Below are positions 9,153 to 21,723 of a DNA stretch of 64,000 nucleotides, in pieces. Position numbers and translations under genes: made by a program. A model generated the notes under the pieces. That model worked only from the letters and a program-made list of their open reading frames with translations, had not been told where the DNA came from and made no database searches. Position 1 is the first letter of the stretch. Each line of letters starts with the position of its first letter. Origin of the DNA: Verrucomicrobiaceae bacterium (GTDB taxonomy: Bacteria > Pseudomonadota > Gammaproteobacteria > Pseudomonadales > CAMLJR01); contig JAQGNY010000007.1 in the NCBI GenBank assembly GCA_028293825.1, positions 1-64,000 on the forward strand. Reading direction: 5' to 3'.

Positions 9153-10217
9153 ATGAAGCTGACATTTCTGGTGCCCGGCGCACTGAATCAACTCACCGGC
9201 GGCTATGTCTTCGATCGTAAAGTGGTTGAGTGTTTACGCGCTTTGGGTCGCGGGGTGGATGTCATCGAACTGTCCGGTCGCTACCCCGCTGCAGACAATC
9301 TTGCCTGCACAGCAGCGCAAAACGCGCTCGCCAGTCTGCCGAGTGGGAGCCCTGTGGTAATTGACGGTCTTGCGCTTCCTGCATTCGATGCTTGTTTAGA
9401 TATTGAGTCCAAACGGCTGAATATCATTGGTTTTATTCACCATCCTTTGTTTCTCGAAACAGGATTAAGTGCGGCCGATGCAAGCAGTTATGCCGAGCTT
9501 GAAGCTCGACTCTGGCGGTTGCTGCGCGGCATTATTTGCCCGAGCGCCCACACCTCTAAGGCGGTGATTGCCGCAGGTGTAAGCTCCGTTCGCGTTGCGA
9601 TTTCGCCACCAGGAACCGGTAAGGTCGTCCGCGCTAGCGAGCGGCGCTCATCCACCCAGCTGCAATTACTCGCGGTCGGTACCGTGACGCAGCGTAAAGG
9701 TCATTTGCTGTTGATCGAGGCTCTGGCTGGCTTGCGCGACGAACTGGAAAATATCGATTGGAAATTGACCTGTATCGGCAGCGTGGAGCGCGACCCGGTT
9801 GCAGCCAATGCCGCGCGGGAAGCGATAGCAGCCAATCAACTTGAGGATAGGGTTTTGCTCGCTGGCGAGCAGCCCCAAGAGTTTTTGACGAACACGTATG
9901 AGAGGGCCGACATCTTCGTGCTGCCGTCATACCACGAGGGTTACGGCATGGTTTTTACCGAGGCAATGGCGCATGGGTTACCGATTATTTCGACCACAGC
10001 CGGCGCGATCCCGGACACTGTTCCCGCCGCTGCAGCGCTATTGGTCGAGCCGGGCGACGCGGGTGCATTGCGCGACGCATTGCGCAGCGTGATGATCGAC
10101 GGTGAATTGCGCGCGCGACTGGCTGCCGGCGCCAGACAAGCCGCAGCCGAACTTCCAGATTGGGACGCTGCCGTTCTTAATTGGTCGCATGCGCTTGATC
10201 GGTTGCTCGCCGCATGA
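9153..10217 (+). CDS. GT4-family glycosyltransferase
   Basis: GT-B fold glycosyltransferase of family 4 (354 aa). The C-terminal donor domain shows AVGTVTQRKGHLLLIEAL, a conserved VLPSYHEGYGMVFTEAM block with the EX7E pair, and GLPIISTTAGAIPD. The N-terminal acceptor domain begins with LTFLVPGALNQLTGGYVFDR. The ATG at 9153 is preferred because GGTGAGAG lies just upstream; a GTG at 9138 would add five residues. It is soluble, with no membrane segment. In this operon it would be a small-molecule rather than polysaccharide transferase, perhaps attaching a sugar to a pterin. The donor and acceptor are not determinable from sequence. Confidence 0.85.
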   Translation: MKLTFLVPGALNQLTGGYVFDRKVVECLRALGRGVDVIELSGRYPAADNLACTAAQNALASLPSGSPVVIDGLALPAFDACLDIESKRLNIIGFIHHPLFLETGLSAADASSYAELEARLWRLLRGIICPSAHTSKAVIAAGVSSVRVAISPPGTGKVVRASERRSSTQLQLLAVGTVTQRKGHLLLIEALAGLRDELENIDWKLTCIGSVERDPVAANAAREAIAANQLEDRVLLAGEQPQEFLTNTYERADIFVLPSYHEGYGMVFTEAMAHGLPIISTTAGAIPDTVPAAAALLVEPGDAGALRDALRSVMIDGELRARLAAGARQAAAELPDWDAAVLNWSHALDRLLAA

Positions 10218-11113
10218 GTGGTTTTGCGGCGGATTGGTTGAAACAGCGCGCGCCTTTTGACTTGGCGGCGCGCAGCACAGAGTTGGCGCTCGGTTTTCGT
10301 GCCGCGTTACGTCGCGATCGGGGCGACGCATCGTCAAGCGTGCGCATCATTGATCTGGCCGCTGGCACCGGCGCCAATTTTCGCGCGCTGGCGCCGTTGC
10401 TTGGCGGCGACCAGGACTGGTTGCTAGTCGATTACGATCCGCTGTTGATTGCGGCGCAAACGGGCGAAATTAACGTCTGGGCGCAGCAGCACGGTTGGTG
10501 TTGCTCTGCAATGGCCGATGGTGTTTTGGTCGAGTCGGAAGGTAGTCAATGGCGCGTGCGTTCACAACAGCTTGATTTAGCGCAGTCTCTGGAGCGGCTT
10601 GATTTAGAGGCGTGCGCTGGCGTAACCACGACAGCATTTCTCGATCTGGTTTCGGCGGCATGGCTGGACAAGCTGGCGGCGTTGTTGGCGCATTTCAATC
10701 TACCTTTGCTGGCGACGTTAAGCGTTGATGGGCGGCGCGAATGGCAGCCGTCTGCCGTATCCGATATGCATATTCAGCAAGCATTTTTGCGCCATCAGGC
10801 CGGCGATAAAGGCTTTGGTATAGCGCTCGGCGAACAGGCTACGCCCTACTTAAAGCGTTGTCTCACGGCACATGAATATCGAACGGTAAGTGCTCACAGT
10901 GACTGGAAAATTGGCGCCGATCACGCCGTAATGCTGCTGCAAATGGCGCGCGAAGCCGCGATCATCACGCAGGAAGTCCATCCCGAAGCTTCGATCGAAA
11001 CGATGCAATGGTTGGCGCAGCGTACCGCGCAAATTTCAGCGCGCGCACTCACGCTGCAGGTCGGTCATGTGGATTTGCTCGCGGTGCCGGCTTCGTCGGC
11101 GACCGTTACTTAA
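10214..11113 (+). CDS. Class I SAM-dependent methyltransferase
   Basis: A 299-aa protein with a SAM-binding motif I, IIDLAAGTGANFRALAPLL (about residues 45-63), followed by an acidic loop (LLVDYDPLLI) that would hold the ribose hydroxyls. The remainder is specific to this group, with SAAWLDKLAALLAHF and DHAVMLLQMAREAA segments. It starts at the ATG overlapping the GT4 stop (ATGA) and ends the operon. The likely role is a final methylation of the product made by the PTPS, dehydrogenase, reductase and glycosyltransferase genes. The substrate is unknown. Confidence 0.8.
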   Translation: MSGFAADWLKQRAPFDLAARSTELALGFRAALRRDRGDASSSVRIIDLAAGTGANFRALAPLLGGDQDWLLVDYDPLLIAAQTGEINVWAQQHGWCCSAMADGVLVESEGSQWRVRSQQLDLAQSLERLDLEACAGVTTTAFLDLVSAAWLDKLAALLAHFNLPLLATLSVDGRREWQPSAVSDMHIQQAFLRHQAGDKGFGIALGEQATPYLKRCLTAHEYRTVSAHSDWKIGADHAVMLLQMAREAAIITQEVHPEASIETMQWLAQRTAQISARALTLQVGHVDLLAVPASSATVT

Positions 11114-11167
11114 TCTTCGCTTGAGAGGCATTAAATCAGCGTTGCCGAGAAGAGGCGATTGCGCTTA

Positions 11168-11188
11168 AAATGCGAACAATTCTTATTT
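11168..11188. promoter_or_regulatory. Fur box upstream of fecI-1
   Basis: AAATGCGAACAATTCTTATTT closely fits the Fur operator pattern (inverted GAxAA..TTCTT-type half-sites). It lies about 42 bases before the sigma-factor start, the usual place for iron repression of a FecI gene. A near-identical site precedes the second sigma gene. Confidence 0.8.
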
Positions 11189-15227: not shown

Positions 15228-15285
15228 GGGAATGAGCTGGCGCGTGCTGCGGTCGAGCCCTTGCGTCGCCGACATTGTTTTATTA

Positions 15286-15306
15286 AAATGAGAACAATTC
15301 TTATCT
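15286..15306. promoter_or_regulatory. Fur box upstream of fecI-2
   Basis: AAATGAGAACAATTCTTATC is nearly the same as the site before fecI-1 and sits about 40 bases before the second sigma start. The matching position and sequence suggest that the two sigma-antisigma pairs descend from a duplication. Confidence 0.8.
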
Positions 15307-15344: not shown

Positions 15345-15863
15345 ATGTCTTCCGTCGATCCTGCCCAGCATTCTGCAATCCAGACGCTTTACAGCGACCA
15401 TCACGGCTGGCTACAGAGTTGGCTGCGGCGCAAATTAGGCAATGCGTTCGACGCCGCCGATGTGGCGCAGGATGTTTTCATCAAGTTGTTGTCGCGACAA
15501 ACGCGTGTCGATGCCCGCGCGCCGCGTGCCTATCTCAGCACCATCGCGCGTGGTTTGGTGATCGACCACTGGCGGCGGCGCGAACTGGAGCAGGCGTGGC
15601 TGGAAACACTGGCACATTTGCCCGCGCCGGAAGTGCCATCGCCGGAGAGCCGATTAGTGTTTCTGGAAGCGTTGGTCGCCATTGACAAAGTGCTTGACGA
15701 ATTAAAACCCGCCGTGCGTCAGGCATTTCTGTGTGCGCAGCCTGAAGGGCTTACCTGTCCACAAATTGCCGTGCGACTTGGCGTTTCGCTCGCCACGGTC
15801 GAGCGCTATATCGCGACGGCGCTGCGTCATTGCTACGCGCTGCGTTTTGGTGGCGACGTGTGA
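15345..15863 (+). CDS. FecI-like ECF sigma factor 2
   Basis: ECF sigma factor of 172 aa, clearly paralogous to sigma 1. It shares the shape of LQSWLRRKLGNAFDAADVAQDVFIKLL, PRAYLSTIARGLVIDHWRRR and the region-4 helix-turn-helix LTCPQIAVRLGVSLATVERYI. It should transcribe a receptor gene in response to its FecR, but the receptor expected downstream is missing and its FecR is truncated. The stop overlaps a GTG start for the fecR part (GTGA). Confidence 0.92.
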   Translation: MSSVDPAQHSAIQTLYSDHHGWLQSWLRRKLGNAFDAADVAQDVFIKLLSRQTRVDARAPRAYLSTIARGLVIDHWRRRELEQAWLETLAHLPAPEVPSPESRLVFLEALVAIDKVLDELKPAVRQAFLCAQPEGLTCPQIAVRLGVSLATVERYIATALRHCYALRFGGDV

Positions 15864-16960
15864 GCGACGCGAAGGCAATTCTTTTCGATGGAAACTCAAT
15901 TCCCGCTGATGTTGTCGATCAAGCCGTCGATTGGGCGGTAAAGCTCAATTTCAATGCGGCCTCTGCCTCGCATCGCGACGCATTTAGCGAATGGCTGAAG
16001 GCCAGTGCAATCAACGCGGAAGCTTGGCGAAGGGTGCAGGCGCTGCAAAGCGACTTCGCCAAAGTGCCGCCGCGACTGGCCATCGACGCCTTGCAAAACG
16101 CCGCTTTGAATCGCTCCGACGCCACTTTGAGCCGGCGGCGCGCGCTGCAAATGCTTGGACTTGTCGGCGTCGCGGCGGCAGCCGGTTGGGGCGCGTGTCG
16201 GCAAGCGCCGTGGCAGCGTCTGCTCGCCGATGTCAGCACACGGGTTGGGGAGCAGCGCCGTGTTCGGCTTGATGACGGTACTGAGCTGGTTCTTAACACC
16301 GACAGTGCGATCAGCGCCGACTTGCGCGGCGAGCGGCGGCTCATCGCGGTGCGGCGTGGCGAAATTCAGGTGACCACCGGTGCTGACAATCACGCATCCG
16401 CTAGCAGGCCATTTTGGCTGAGCACACCGTTCGAGGCCGAGCGCTCGCTGCTCGCCGCGCTCGTGCATCACTACGACGAGCTAATCGACTACGTGCGGCG
16501 CCACTTTGGCGACCGCGGTTTCGCGCGCGATATCGTCCATGACGTCTGCGTGCAAATCATGGAGCGCACCGAGCAAACCGGCGTACGGATTCCGTTGGCG
16601 TTGCTGCGGCGTATTTCGCACGATAAGGCGGTCGACCGTTGCCGTGGCGAGGCCACGCGACGGCGTTGGATCGATGTGGTCGATACGCTGCCGGATGCCG
16701 TTTGTCCCAGCTCGGATCTATTGCGCGGCCTGACTGCCGAGCAGGAACTCGAACTGCTCACTCGCGCTATCGAAGCGCTGCCGCTGCGGCGGCGTCAGGT
16801 TTTTATCCTGAATAAAATTCACCAGCTGCCGCAGGCCGACGTGGCGGCGCGACTCGGCATTTCAGTAAAAATGGTCGAGAAGCAACTGCGCTTGGCGATG
16901 CTGCATTGCCGCGAGAGTTTCGAGGGTGAGGAGCTCGGTTATGTCCGATTCGCGAAATAA
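15860..16960 (+). CDS. FecR(N-term)-FecI chimera created by deletion
   Basis: One 366-aa frame joins two different proteins. From the GTG at 15860 to about 16432 it is a FecR: a sigma-binding N-terminus (VVDQAVDWAVKLNFNAASAS), a Tat-like membrane segment (RRRALQMLGLVGVAAAAGW) and the first half of the periplasmic domain (VGEQRRVRLDDGTELVLNTD, ending WLSTPF). From about 16433 to the end it is a nearly complete ECF sigma factor (VRRHFGDRGFARDIVHDVC, ISHDKAVDRCRGEATRRRW, and region 4 LPQADVAARLGISVKMVEKQL). The lost middle would be the rest of FecR, a receptor gene and the sigma N-terminus. If the membrane helix inserts normally, the sigma part would sit in the periplasm. A GTG at 16463 could allow separate initiation. 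This is probably a scar, possibly still supplying sigma 3. Confidence 0.8.
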   Translation: MSDAKAILFDGNSIPADVVDQAVDWAVKLNFNAASASHRDAFSEWLKASAINAEAWRRVQALQSDFAKVPPRLAIDALQNAALNRSDATLSRRRALQMLGLVGVAAAAGWGACRQAPWQRLLADVSTRVGEQRRVRLDDGTELVLNTDSAISADLRGERRLIAVRRGEIQVTTGADNHASASRPFWLSTPFEAERSLLAALVHHYDELIDYVRRHFGDRGFARDIVHDVCVQIMERTEQTGVRIPLALLRRISHDKAVDRCRGEATRRRWIDVVDTLPDAVCPSSDLLRGLTAEQELELLTRAIEALPLRRRQVFILNKIHQLPQADVAARLGISVKMVEKQLRLAMLHCRESFEGEELGYVRFAK

Positions 16961-17876: not shown

Positions 17877-17949
17877 AAAAAATAATGACGCGGGCGGGTA
17901 GGGTTTACGCCACCGCCATACGGCAACCCCATTGAGTTCATTATTTTTT
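17877..17949 (+). repeat. 12-bp inverted repeat in receptor-2 leader
   Basis: AAAAAATAATGA (17877-17888) and TCATTATTTTTT (17938-17949) are perfect reverse complements enclosing a G/C-rich 49-base segment. The right arm ends just before the GGGGAAAG ribosome site of the receptor gene. In RNA it would form a long stem closing the leader. It could be an attenuator, a processing hairpin or a sigma-dependent promoter feature; the role is unproven. Confidence 0.55.
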
Positions 17950-17962
17950 GGGGAAAGCCACC

Positions 17963-20325
17963 GTGCAGCATTCAATTTTTAACGCCAGCCGCCTGCGACC
18001 ACTCGCCGCTGCGATCGCCTTGTTAACGTCGTTGAGCATTCACGCGCAGACCGCGCCGGTCAGCGTCGATCTGCCGGCAGAATCTTTAGATAAAGCGCTC
18101 AATCAATTGGCGCGACAGGCCGGCGTGCAAATTATTTTCGCGAGCGGCATTGCCTCGGATAAATCCGCCCCGGCGTTGAAAGGCAATTTCACTGTTGGTG
18201 AAGCGTTAAATCGGCTGCTTAGCGCTAGCGGCCTCAGCGCGCAGGTGCAGGATGGCAAAACCTTCACCGTAGTTCCGCAACCGCGCGACGACAGCGGCAC
18301 ACTGCTCAAGCCGGTACAGGTAAAAGCCGACAACCTTTAGAAGGCGATGCCAGCGCCGGTTATCGCGCGGAGACAACCAGAGGCATCGGACCGTGGGGTC
18401 AGCGTTCGTTGCAGGACACGCCGTATTCGATGACGGTGATTACCTCGAGCCTGATTGAAAATACCGTCGCCGGCGATATGGATCAAATCTACAAAATTAA
18501 TCCGCTCACTCAGAACAGCGCGCCATCGACGGTATACGACACACCGTATGCGGTGATACGCGGATTTCACACGCAGCAGGGTATTGTCGACGGCGTGCGT
18601 CTGTCTTCTGCGCTGTATGGCATCAGCATGGAAGAAATGGAGCGTGTCGAAATTATTAATGGCCTGTCCGGATTTTTGTACGGCGCAGGCAATGTCGGCG
18701 GCACTACCAATTTCGTATTGAAGCGGCCCACCGAAAAACGGGTAACGAATGTCACGCTGGGCAATTACGGTGGCGATCAATATTTCGCGCATGTCGATCT
18801 CGGCGGCCCGATCGATAGCGACGGCAAATTCGGTTATCGCTTCAATGCGGCGTATCAGGACGGCGATACCGAAAAGGACAATCAGCATTTGAAAAAGTCG
18901 CTGATCAGCGGCGCATTCGATTGGCATGTCACGGACGATTTTTTGTTGCAGCTGGAAGCGGGCCATCGCGACTATCAATTGGATGGCGCCGATTCGCGGT
19001 TTTATTTCACCGGCATCAAGCGGCCGTCGTCTTACGATAACGACAAAACGCATACGCCGACTTGGTCGTATAACGATGTCAAAACCGATCGCTACGGTGT
19101 GAACGGGCAGTGGACCATCAACGAACACTTAACTGCTCGCGCGGCGTATTTATATAAGCAAGACGATCGTGAAAGCATTTATACCTACCCGCTGCTGCAA
19201 AGTAACAACACGTTCAATGTCGGTGTTTCAAATGTGGCTCCGAACCAAATGACCGCGCAAGGTGCGTACGGTTATCTCGATACGAACTTCCACACATTCG
19301 GTATTCAGCACACGCTGACCGTCGGCATATCGGGCGATAAATACGAAGTGCGCCAACACGGCGACAGCTCCAGCTACGTGGTTTTTTCGGGCTACGATTT
19401 ACGTGGCATTGCATCGTTGCAACAGCCGGTGACGCCGCCGATCGGCACGAAACCGTTGTACACCGCCAGCAAGGCGGAGAATCGAAATATCGTTGTCGGC
19501 GATGACATTTCTTTCGGTGAACACTGGTCGGCGCTGATTGGTTTCAATCGTTCGACGCTCGAAAATAAAAGTATTAACGCCAGCGGAGTAACGACGGCGG
19601 ATTACGACAAATCCGATATCACACCGACGCTGTCGATTATTTATAAGCCCGTCGAAAATCTCAGTGTTTACGCGAGCTACATGGAAGCGATGGAGCAGGG
19701 CACCATCGTCGGCAGCACCTATAAAAATAGGGACGAAGTGCTCGACCCAATGATCAGCAAACAATACGAAATCGGCGCGAAAGGATCGCTCGGCAATGTG
19801 GCGCTGACCAGCGCGTTATTCTGCATCGAAAAAGCCAATCAATATTCCGATGACGGCACACCGACCGGCACCTACGTGCAGGATGGCTTGCAGGTACATG
19901 AAGGCATTGAATTAACCGCGACCGGAAAGCTGAGCGACAACCTGACCATCGTCGCTGGCGGCGTATGGATGGATCTCACCATCAAGAAAAGTAATAACCC
20001 AGCGCTCGAAGGAAAAATGCCCAGCGGTGTCGCGGATAAAATGGCGAAGCTTTATGCCGAATACAGTGTGCCCGGCGTGAATGGCCTGACCTTGTCCGGC
20101 GGTGCGTTTTATACCGGCAGTTATTACGGCGATGGTTTGAACACGGACGACATCAAGGACTTTGTCGTCGGTGATATCGGCGCGCGCTACGCCACCAAAA
20201 TCTATAACACGCCGGCCACGGTGCGGTTGAATGTGACCAATATTGCCAATGTCGACTATTGGGCGACGAATTATTCGCTGGGAATTCCGCGCACGGTAGC
20301 ATTGTCGATTGGTATGAGTTTCTAA
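17963..20325 (+). pseudogene. TonB-dependent siderophore receptor 2, frameshifted
   Basis: Receptor with signal peptide (ending SIHAQ), STN domain (SLDKALNQLARQAGVQIIFA), plug and barrel, broken by one frameshift. The first frame runs from GTG 17963 (GGGGAAAG upstream) to a TAG at 18338-18340 after VQVKADNL. The remainder continues in the -1 frame as LEGDASAGYRAETT, then QDTPYSMTVITSSLIE, and is open to SIGMSF at 20325. Joining the frames at about 18335 restores a continuous receptor. The change is one base lost or two gained, near the run CCTTTAG. The rest is undamaged, so the lesion is recent or a sequencing error. It should belong with FecR-3. Confidence 0.85.
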
Positions 20326-20374: not shown

Positions 20375-20463
20375 CAAATTTTTTTCAAAAAAAGTGAGGG
20401 GATTTGAATTTTCGTGCGGCCTACCAGGGAAGCGTTAAAACTTACCTGGCGAGAAAGCTAATC

Positions 20464-21240
20464 ATGTCTCCGAATTATTTTCATAACGGTGTTGCTCATG
20501 GCGCCACTGTTTCAGCGGTAGAAATTAAACCAAACCCATTTAAAGCGAAGGCGATGACTCAGGTTTTGCGCAACGTTGCGGCATATGCCGCGTTGGGGGT
20601 GATGCTGTATCCGACATTGGCGAGTGCGCAAAATAGCGCCGCGCAAGACGCGACCGAAACAAAAAATTTTGCGATTGCGGCAGGGCCACTCGATGTCGCG
20701 CTGGACCGATTTGCTAGAACGGCGGGCGTTAATTTCTCATACGACGCCGCGCTGATCAGCGGTATCACGACTAAAGGATTGAACGGTACACATTCGGTTG
20801 AAGACGGATTAAATAGGCTGCTCGCCGACACCGGCATCGAAGCTGCTCTGCAACCGGGCGGTGGGTTTGTTTTGCGCAAGGCAATTCCGCGCGCCAATAA
20901 CGGCCCGGCGTTAACGCTTGGCGTCGTGAAGGTTAGTGATAGCTTAGAGCGCGAAACGGCCACCGGTCCGATGCGTGGTTATGTCGCCAAACGCAGCGCG
21001 ACCGGCACAAAAACGGACACGCCAATTATCGAAACGCCGCAGTCGATTTCAGTGGTTGGCGCGCAGCAGATCACGATGCAGGGCGCACAGACAGTTAACG
21101 ACGCGCTGAAATATACCGCCGGCGTGACCAGTATTGTCGATACGACGCAGGACAGTATTTATTTGCGCGGCTCAGCAATTAGGCTAAGTAGCGGCTTTTA
21201 TTCAGCTATTCATAAATCTATTTCACATTGTGAAGATTGA
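20464..21240 (+). pseudogene. TonB-dependent receptor 3, N-terminal remnant
   Basis: Only the first 258 residues of a siderophore receptor remain. They comprise an N-terminal extension, a signal-peptide core (YAALGVMLYPTLASAQ), an STN domain (AAGPLDVALDRFARTAGVNF) and the start of the plug (GYVAKRSATGTKTDTPIIE, TPQSISVVGAQQI, DSIYLRGSAI). After that the sequence turns into unrelated AT-rich code and stops. The plug end and the whole barrel are gone. The segment GYVAKRSATGTKTDTP is shared with receptor 1, marking them as close paralogues. It cannot transport anything; an STN-only remnant might in theory still touch a FecR. A TTG at 20404 is an alternative start. Confidence 0.85.
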
Positions 21241-21262: not shown

Positions 21263-21284
21263 TGATGAGATTGATTCTTATTTA
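21263..21284. promoter_or_regulatory. Fur box upstream of the DUF3649-PepSY operon
   Basis: TGATGAGATTGATTCTTATTT resembles the Fur operator (GATGAGA..TTCTTAT half-sites). It lies about 80 bases before the DUF3649 start, so the inner-membrane operon is expected to be iron-repressed independently of the broken receptor. Confidence 0.7.
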
Positions 21285-21366: not shown

Positions 21367-21723
21367 ATGCTTATCGACACACTCAAAACCAACCGCAATC
21401 TCTCTCAAGCCGTGCCCACACTGAAATCGACCAAGTCAGTATCGCTGGCGTATCGCGGCGCGGTGCTGTCGCGAATTTTGGCGGGTGTATTTGGCGGTTA
21501 TGCGCTGGCGTCAGTTCTGTCTGCGTTATTGGCGACGACATTACCGCTGTCGCGTATCGATGCCGTGCTGACGGCCACGCTATCGGCCTTCTTCGTGTTT
21601 GCATTGGCCGTAATGTGGACATTTGCCGCGCGAACAGCCGCGCATGCTTGGATCGGATTGTTAGCGCCGACCGCAGCGATGGCTTGTTGGATATTTCCGC
21701 CCGCGTGGATCGTCAGTCTATGA
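21367..21723 (+). CDS. DUF3649 iron-uptake membrane protein
   Basis: A 118-aa inner-membrane protein with three hydrophobic stretches (GVFGGYALASVLSALLAT, VLTATLSAFFVFALAVMW and WIGLLAPTAAMACWIFP). DUF3649 proteins are found almost only beside siderophore receptors and PepSY proteins and are thought to assist iron release or uptake. This one stands first in a three-gene coupled operon behind a Fur box. Its stop overlaps the next start (ATGA). The molecular role is unknown. Confidence 0.85.
   Translation: MLIDTLKTNRNLSQAVPTLKSTKSVSLAYRGAVLSRILAGVFGGYALASVLSALLATTLPLSRIDAVLTATLSAFFVFALAVMWTFAARTAAHAWIGLLAPTAAMACWIFPPAWIVSL

Follow-up and report, generated by a model that had tools for sequence, protein, structure and literature searches.

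A FecR-ECF sigma factor chimera among tandem cell-surface-signalling cassettes, probably the scar of a deletion

The fecR2'-fecI3 gene and its surroundings

The window, the whole 64,000-nucleotide stretch of DNA analysed here, carries an array of cell-surface-signalling genes in which fecI2 is followed by a fused gene, fecR2'-fecI3. The features of this part of the array are:

15285..15304 (+), Fur-box-like element before fecI2 (2 matches found against 0.01 expected by chance)
15345..15863 (+), fecI2, an intact ECF sigma factor of the FecI type (Pfam, NCBIfam)
15860..16960 (+), fused gene fecR2'-fecI3, 366 aa
15917..16045 (+), DUF4880, FecI-binding cytoplasmic domain of FecR2 (Pfam)
16133..16198 (+), membrane anchor with Tat-like motif (residues 92-113), made up of RRR and one hydrophobic segment
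16229..16429 (+), first two thirds of the periplasmic FecR domain, stopping before the position of LGT, the Gly-Thr self-cleavage motif
16427..16433 (+), junction, CCGTTCG, read as TPF of FecR or as start-(S or P)-F of the sigma factor
16427..16957 (+), sigma-3, an ECF sigma domain complete in regions 2 and 4 but missing its own start codon
16941..17852 (+), fecR3, encoding the cognate anti-sigma factor for sigma-3, with its own ATG at 16941 and GAGGAG in front
17948..18340 (+), STN (signalling) domain of receptor 3, whose homology to sigma-3 cluster receptors stops at about 18280, ahead of the frame end at 18340
18343..20325 (+), plug and barrel of another receptor lineage, in a different frame from the STN domain
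20404..21240 (+), receptor 4, STN domain and half a plug, ending mid-plug with the barrel missing

The fused gene is a single open frame without interruption from GTG 15860 to TAA 16960, and its start overlaps the stop of fecI2 as GTGA. Codon-position GC is coding-like across the whole chimera, with the phase unchanged at the junction. Pfam matched DUF4880 at residues 20-62 (E 3e-10), FecR at residues 124-190 (E 7e-9; the truncated domain covers positions 2-67 of the 97 in the profile) and Sigma70_r4_2 at residues 298-350 (E 1e-13), together with a weak Sigma70_r2 match at residues 203-264. NCBIfam assigned residues 21-190 to FecR (PRK09774) and 203-352 to an ECF sigma factor (PRK12527). We attribute the weak region 2 match to a divergent lineage rather than to damage, since the homologous sigma of genome G170 likewise lacks a region 2 match at E 0.001.

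The FecR part retains the DUF4880 domain, in which W25, W45 and W56 are spaced as W19, W39 and W50 of E. coli FecR, and a single RR-type membrane segment, whose hydropathy peak (residues 95-113, the sole hydrophobic segment) follows RRR at 92. FecR is reportedly exported by Tat, to go by the title of Passmore et al. 2020, a reference cited in PMC10924467. Absent are the full periplasmic domain with the Gly-Thr motif and the C-terminal receptor-binding subdomain. On the sigma side, regions 2 and 4 are present according to Pfam, NCBIfam, the structure model and the relatives; the translation start of a FecI-type factor is missing, the start-codon column of the relatives reading ACA in the chimera.

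An AlphaFold2 model of the chimera was built from a 16-row alignment (mean pLDDT 72.7, pTM 0.38). The DUF4880 helices and the sigma 2 and sigma 4 domains were modelled confidently, with pLDDT mostly above 80 over both sigma domains; the FecR remnant was poor (about 53-74), and the arrangement between the parts is unreliable at this pTM. Foldseek matched ECF sigma factors and, weakly, the periplasmic domain of PupR. The model fits a protein in which two intact modules would flank a broken one.

The Fur-box-like 20-mer before fecI2 differs by one base from that before fecI1 (11167-11186), and both lie about 40 bases ahead of the start. No such element precedes sigma-3, which has therefore probably lost its own promoter and now depends on that of fecI2. 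A weaker Fur-box-like palindrome is found at 21264-21281, before the gene at 21367, and comparison by eye of the promoter before receptor 3 with its G170 counterpart revealed no clear common motif.

Downstream, the STN domain of receptor 3 shares 45-49% identity with the receptors of sigma-3 clusters up to its limit of homology, and the plug and barrel that follow are about 30% identical, over their whole length, to receptors of G078 and G061. Receptor 3 (17948-20325) thus reads as a mosaic, a sigma-3-type STN domain joined out of frame to a foreign plug and barrel. The sole whole-looking cassette is the first one, fecI1-fecR1-receptor 1. The genome as a whole has 44 TonB-dependent receptor barrel matches and three FecR matches, all of the latter inside the array, which places nearly all receptors outside FecR control. 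Between a glycosyltransferase gene and the array, a 299-aa frame at 10214-11113 has no Pfam match.

Parental lineages and the junction

The two parts of the chimera belong to lineages that exist as separate genes in other genomes. The closest relatives of the FecR part (G862, G801, G900, G938 and G762, 44-46% identical), and also G238, G251 and G290, match residues 13-190 and then continue full-length; each has a sigma of the fecI2 lineage upstream and a receptor gene directly downstream. Orthologues of fecI2 itself adjoin FecR2 orthologues in G238, G251, G801, G900 and others. The closest relatives of sigma-3 (G840, G1022, G859, G878, G1011 and others, 51-56% identical) match from about residue 191 and stand as genes of their own, with a fecR3-like gene and then a receptor downstream, the pair order sigma-3/fecR3 being repeated in G170, G840, G1022, G859, G878 and others. 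The missing half of FecR2 was not found relocated elsewhere in the genome. G001, the sole other genome of the genus, contained no similar DNA by direct comparison and hence offers no near outgroup.

Alignments to both parents place the switch from FecR to sigma at codons 190-192. The original prediction, of a frame that begins as a FecR and turns into a sigma factor at about 16433, is borne out by Pfam and NCBIfam and by these alignments (16427-16433). Intact sigmas begin (GTG)-S/P-F-D/E-x-A-K-P-T-L-L-x-x-L, for example GTG CCG TTC GAT in G859, and FecR relatives read ACG CCC TTC GGC (G900) or ACC CCC TTC GCT (G1085) at the corresponding place; the chimera has ACA CCG TTC GAG GCC GAG CGC TCG CTG CTC. 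The switch is set within 16427-16433 because CCGTTC suits both parents. The junction likely lies within this microhomology, and we infer a deletion mediated by it.

In our reading of the alignment, the start codon of the sigma relatives (GTG, TTG or ATG) corresponds to about codon 189 of the chimera. Homology to intact sigmas still extends through the N-terminus PFEAERSLLAAL, which limits the loss to the start codon; sigma-3 appears to have lost essentially just that codon and the upstream promoter region. A deletion had been proposed to have taken the remainder of fecR2, its receptor gene and the first codons of the next fecI. The first two of these agree with the FecR2 relatives, which run on and are followed by a receptor; the third has to be narrowed to essentially the start codon. 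The proposed search of relatives for an uninterrupted stretch came back empty, the ancestral order fecR2-receptor-fecI3 being found in no genome examined, so we infer, rather than read off from a relative, what a deletion would have taken, receptor included.

Origin of the chimera

No second FecR-then-sigma fusion was found among the matches listed in four surveys spanning about 1,080 different genomes, in which scoring covered the top candidates of each genome and a full-length fused homologue would rank first, or in a scan of genome contigs. An automatic check of 160 locus sequences, some from overlapping loci (78 sigma frames and 155 FecR frames), returned a FecR-then-sigma frame solely in the window. 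The check also recovered one IutY-like sigma-then-FecR frame, in G203, so fusions are detectable in this way. That frame (L097:6999-8174, +) encodes an ECF sigma and then a complete FecR in 392 aa and is followed by a receptor. Long open frames near sigma hits at L048, L094, L095, L099 and L152-L157 were inspected and are not FecR fusions. A conserved family of FecR-sigma fusions, which the original prediction had named as the sign of a functional fusion rather than a scar, was rejected, with zero full-length homologues among the matches listed for about 1,080 genomes.

We consider it likely that a deletion within the tandem array of signalling cassettes left the chimera as its scar, a real gene and probably an accidental relic. 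The ancestral order would have been fecI2-fecR2-receptor2-(promoter)-fecI3-fecR3-receptor3, from which a deletion would have removed everything from mid-fecR2 through the start codon of fecI3, probably via recombination at CCGTTC; the two frames would then have matched by chance, leaving a fused gene transcribed from the Fur-box promoter of fecI2. This was also what the original prediction held to be the simplest explanation, and it agrees with parents that are separate and intact elsewhere. It is favoured because the halves come from two gene lineages, the relatives of FecR2 keeping their C-terminal half directly before a receptor and those of sigma-3 having a start of their own, and because the lost half of FecR2 lies nowhere else in the genome. 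That the fusion was seen once among the matches listed for about 1,080 genomes, in a search that did detect an IutY-like one, argues for a scar, as do the mosaic, out-of-frame receptor 3 and the truncated receptor 4; the lack before sigma-3 of the Fur-like box that fecI1 and fecI2 have supports it too. With three lesions within about 5 kb, decay of the array is favoured over the birth of a new regulator. One feature counts against a scar: domains free of stops and well-conserved sigma motifs would equally fit a functional fusion. Instead of a deletion, a fecI3 cassette inserted or shuffled into fecR2 may also have formed the gene, which would accord with the lack of the uninterrupted ancestral order among the genomes examined.

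The DNA fusion might be a scar while sigma-3 is still made free, by internal initiation, and works with FecR3. We regard this as unlikely. The original prediction had pointed to GTG 16463, which does lie in frame within the sigma part; starting there, the protein would begin VHHYDELIDYV and be slightly shorter than a related sigma of G147 whose first ATG gives MLENYYRELVCF, and FecR3 comes from an intact gene that has a start codon and a ribosome-binding site of its own. No Shine-Dalgarno-like sequence, however, precedes GTG 16463 or GTG 16493, and with the receptor of this system mosaic and out of frame the transducer would be missing. Far less probable is a functional hybrid of reversed order, the mirror image of IutY, in which the sigma would be held by the FecR domain and set free under its control. 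The 366-codon frame is intact and coding-like in composition, the FecI-binding and sigma domains both look complete, and extensions that put the anti-sigma part first are reported in some ECF36 sigmas (PMC8999054). Yet this fusion occurs only once among the matches listed for about 1,080 genomes, the membrane segment would place the sigma on the wrong side if the protein were exported, and neither the self-cleavage site nor the receptor-binding half survives, with the cognate receptors lost or broken. That the array carries two further lesions also makes the suggested new regulator improbable. We give very little credence to its most elaborate form, a reversed IutY whose intact FecI-binding domain would switch FecI2 on constitutively and also hand over a tethered second sigma, wiring two sigmas into one protein. 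It is likewise most improbable that assembly or sequencing joined two distant pieces. The assembly does consist of 56 contigs, and the array contains paralogous receptors and another frame break nearby; against this, the two joined sequences share no homology, the 211-mer spanning the junction occurs once in the genome with no off-target match longer than 31 bases, codon composition is smooth across it, and shared words such as CCGTTC are far shorter than an assembler overlap.

Predicted regulatory effects and comparison with known systems

As a deletion scar, the gene would encode a FecR2 anchored in the membrane but deprived of the Gly-Thr self-cleavage site and of the half that binds the receptor; the sigma domain would trail behind the membrane segment as cargo. 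In E. coli, nonsense mutants of fecR at codons 82 and 202, FecR fragments of 59 or more residues and internal deletions lacking Gly181-Thr182 all activate FecI in the absence of ferric citrate (PMC9249621). FecR-BlaM fusions activate FecI without requiring ferric citrate, and L13, W19, W39 and W50 of FecR are required for induction (PMC9249621). Since the FecI-binding N-terminal domain is intact in the chimera, analogy with truncated FecR and FecR-BlaM predicts that the truncated FecR2 should keep FecI2 active without a receptor signal. The sigma-3 part would probably sit behind the membrane segment, out of reach of RNA polymerase, and be largely silent; some activity could remain should export of the chimera fail or translation start afresh at GTG 16463. 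If truncated FecR2 leaves FecI2 on, the locus would be a natural signal-independent regulator of iron uptake; otherwise it would be an ordinary relic of gene decay.

In these respects the chimera is a natural equivalent of the FecR truncations and FecR-cargo fusions built in the laboratory. It shares with E. coli FecR and its derivatives the N-terminal DUF4880, the tryptophan spacing, the RR-type segment and the FecR domain, and carries foreign cargo at the C-terminus as FecR-BlaM does, the difference being that the cargo is a natural sigma factor, encoded in a genome rather than constructed. In ECF36 sigmas with an N-terminal DUF2275 anti-sigma extension the regulatory part also precedes the sigma part (PMC8999054); there, however, the anti-sigma belongs to another family, not FecR, and has several membrane helices. 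Stand-alone cassettes of the sigma-3 type (G840, G1022, G859 and others) resemble the fused gene in sequence, at the 51-56% identity noted above, and in the fecR and then receptor downstream, and differ in that the sigma carries no FecR part and keeps a start codon of its own, with an intact receptor in most loci read.

A close parallel in composition is IutY of Pseudomonas putida (ECF243), which also unites, within a single polypeptide of an iron cell-surface-signalling system, an ECF sigma with one membrane segment and a domain of the FecR type (PMC5411451, PMC9249621). As the original prediction stated and the literature confirms, IutY has the sigma first (PMC5411451, PMC9249621): its cytoplasmic sigma is followed by the membrane segment and a complete periplasmic domain, whereas the chimera runs in the opposite order, retains two thirds of the FecR domain and lacks the self-cleavage site. 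Hybrids of the IutY type are activated by Prc and RseP cleavage. In architecture the chimera is a hybrid of the IutY kind with its order turned round, for which no evidence of conservation emerged, and it illustrates how signalling cassettes in tandem can give rise to hybrid genes by collapsing, a plausible route to IutY-like proteins.
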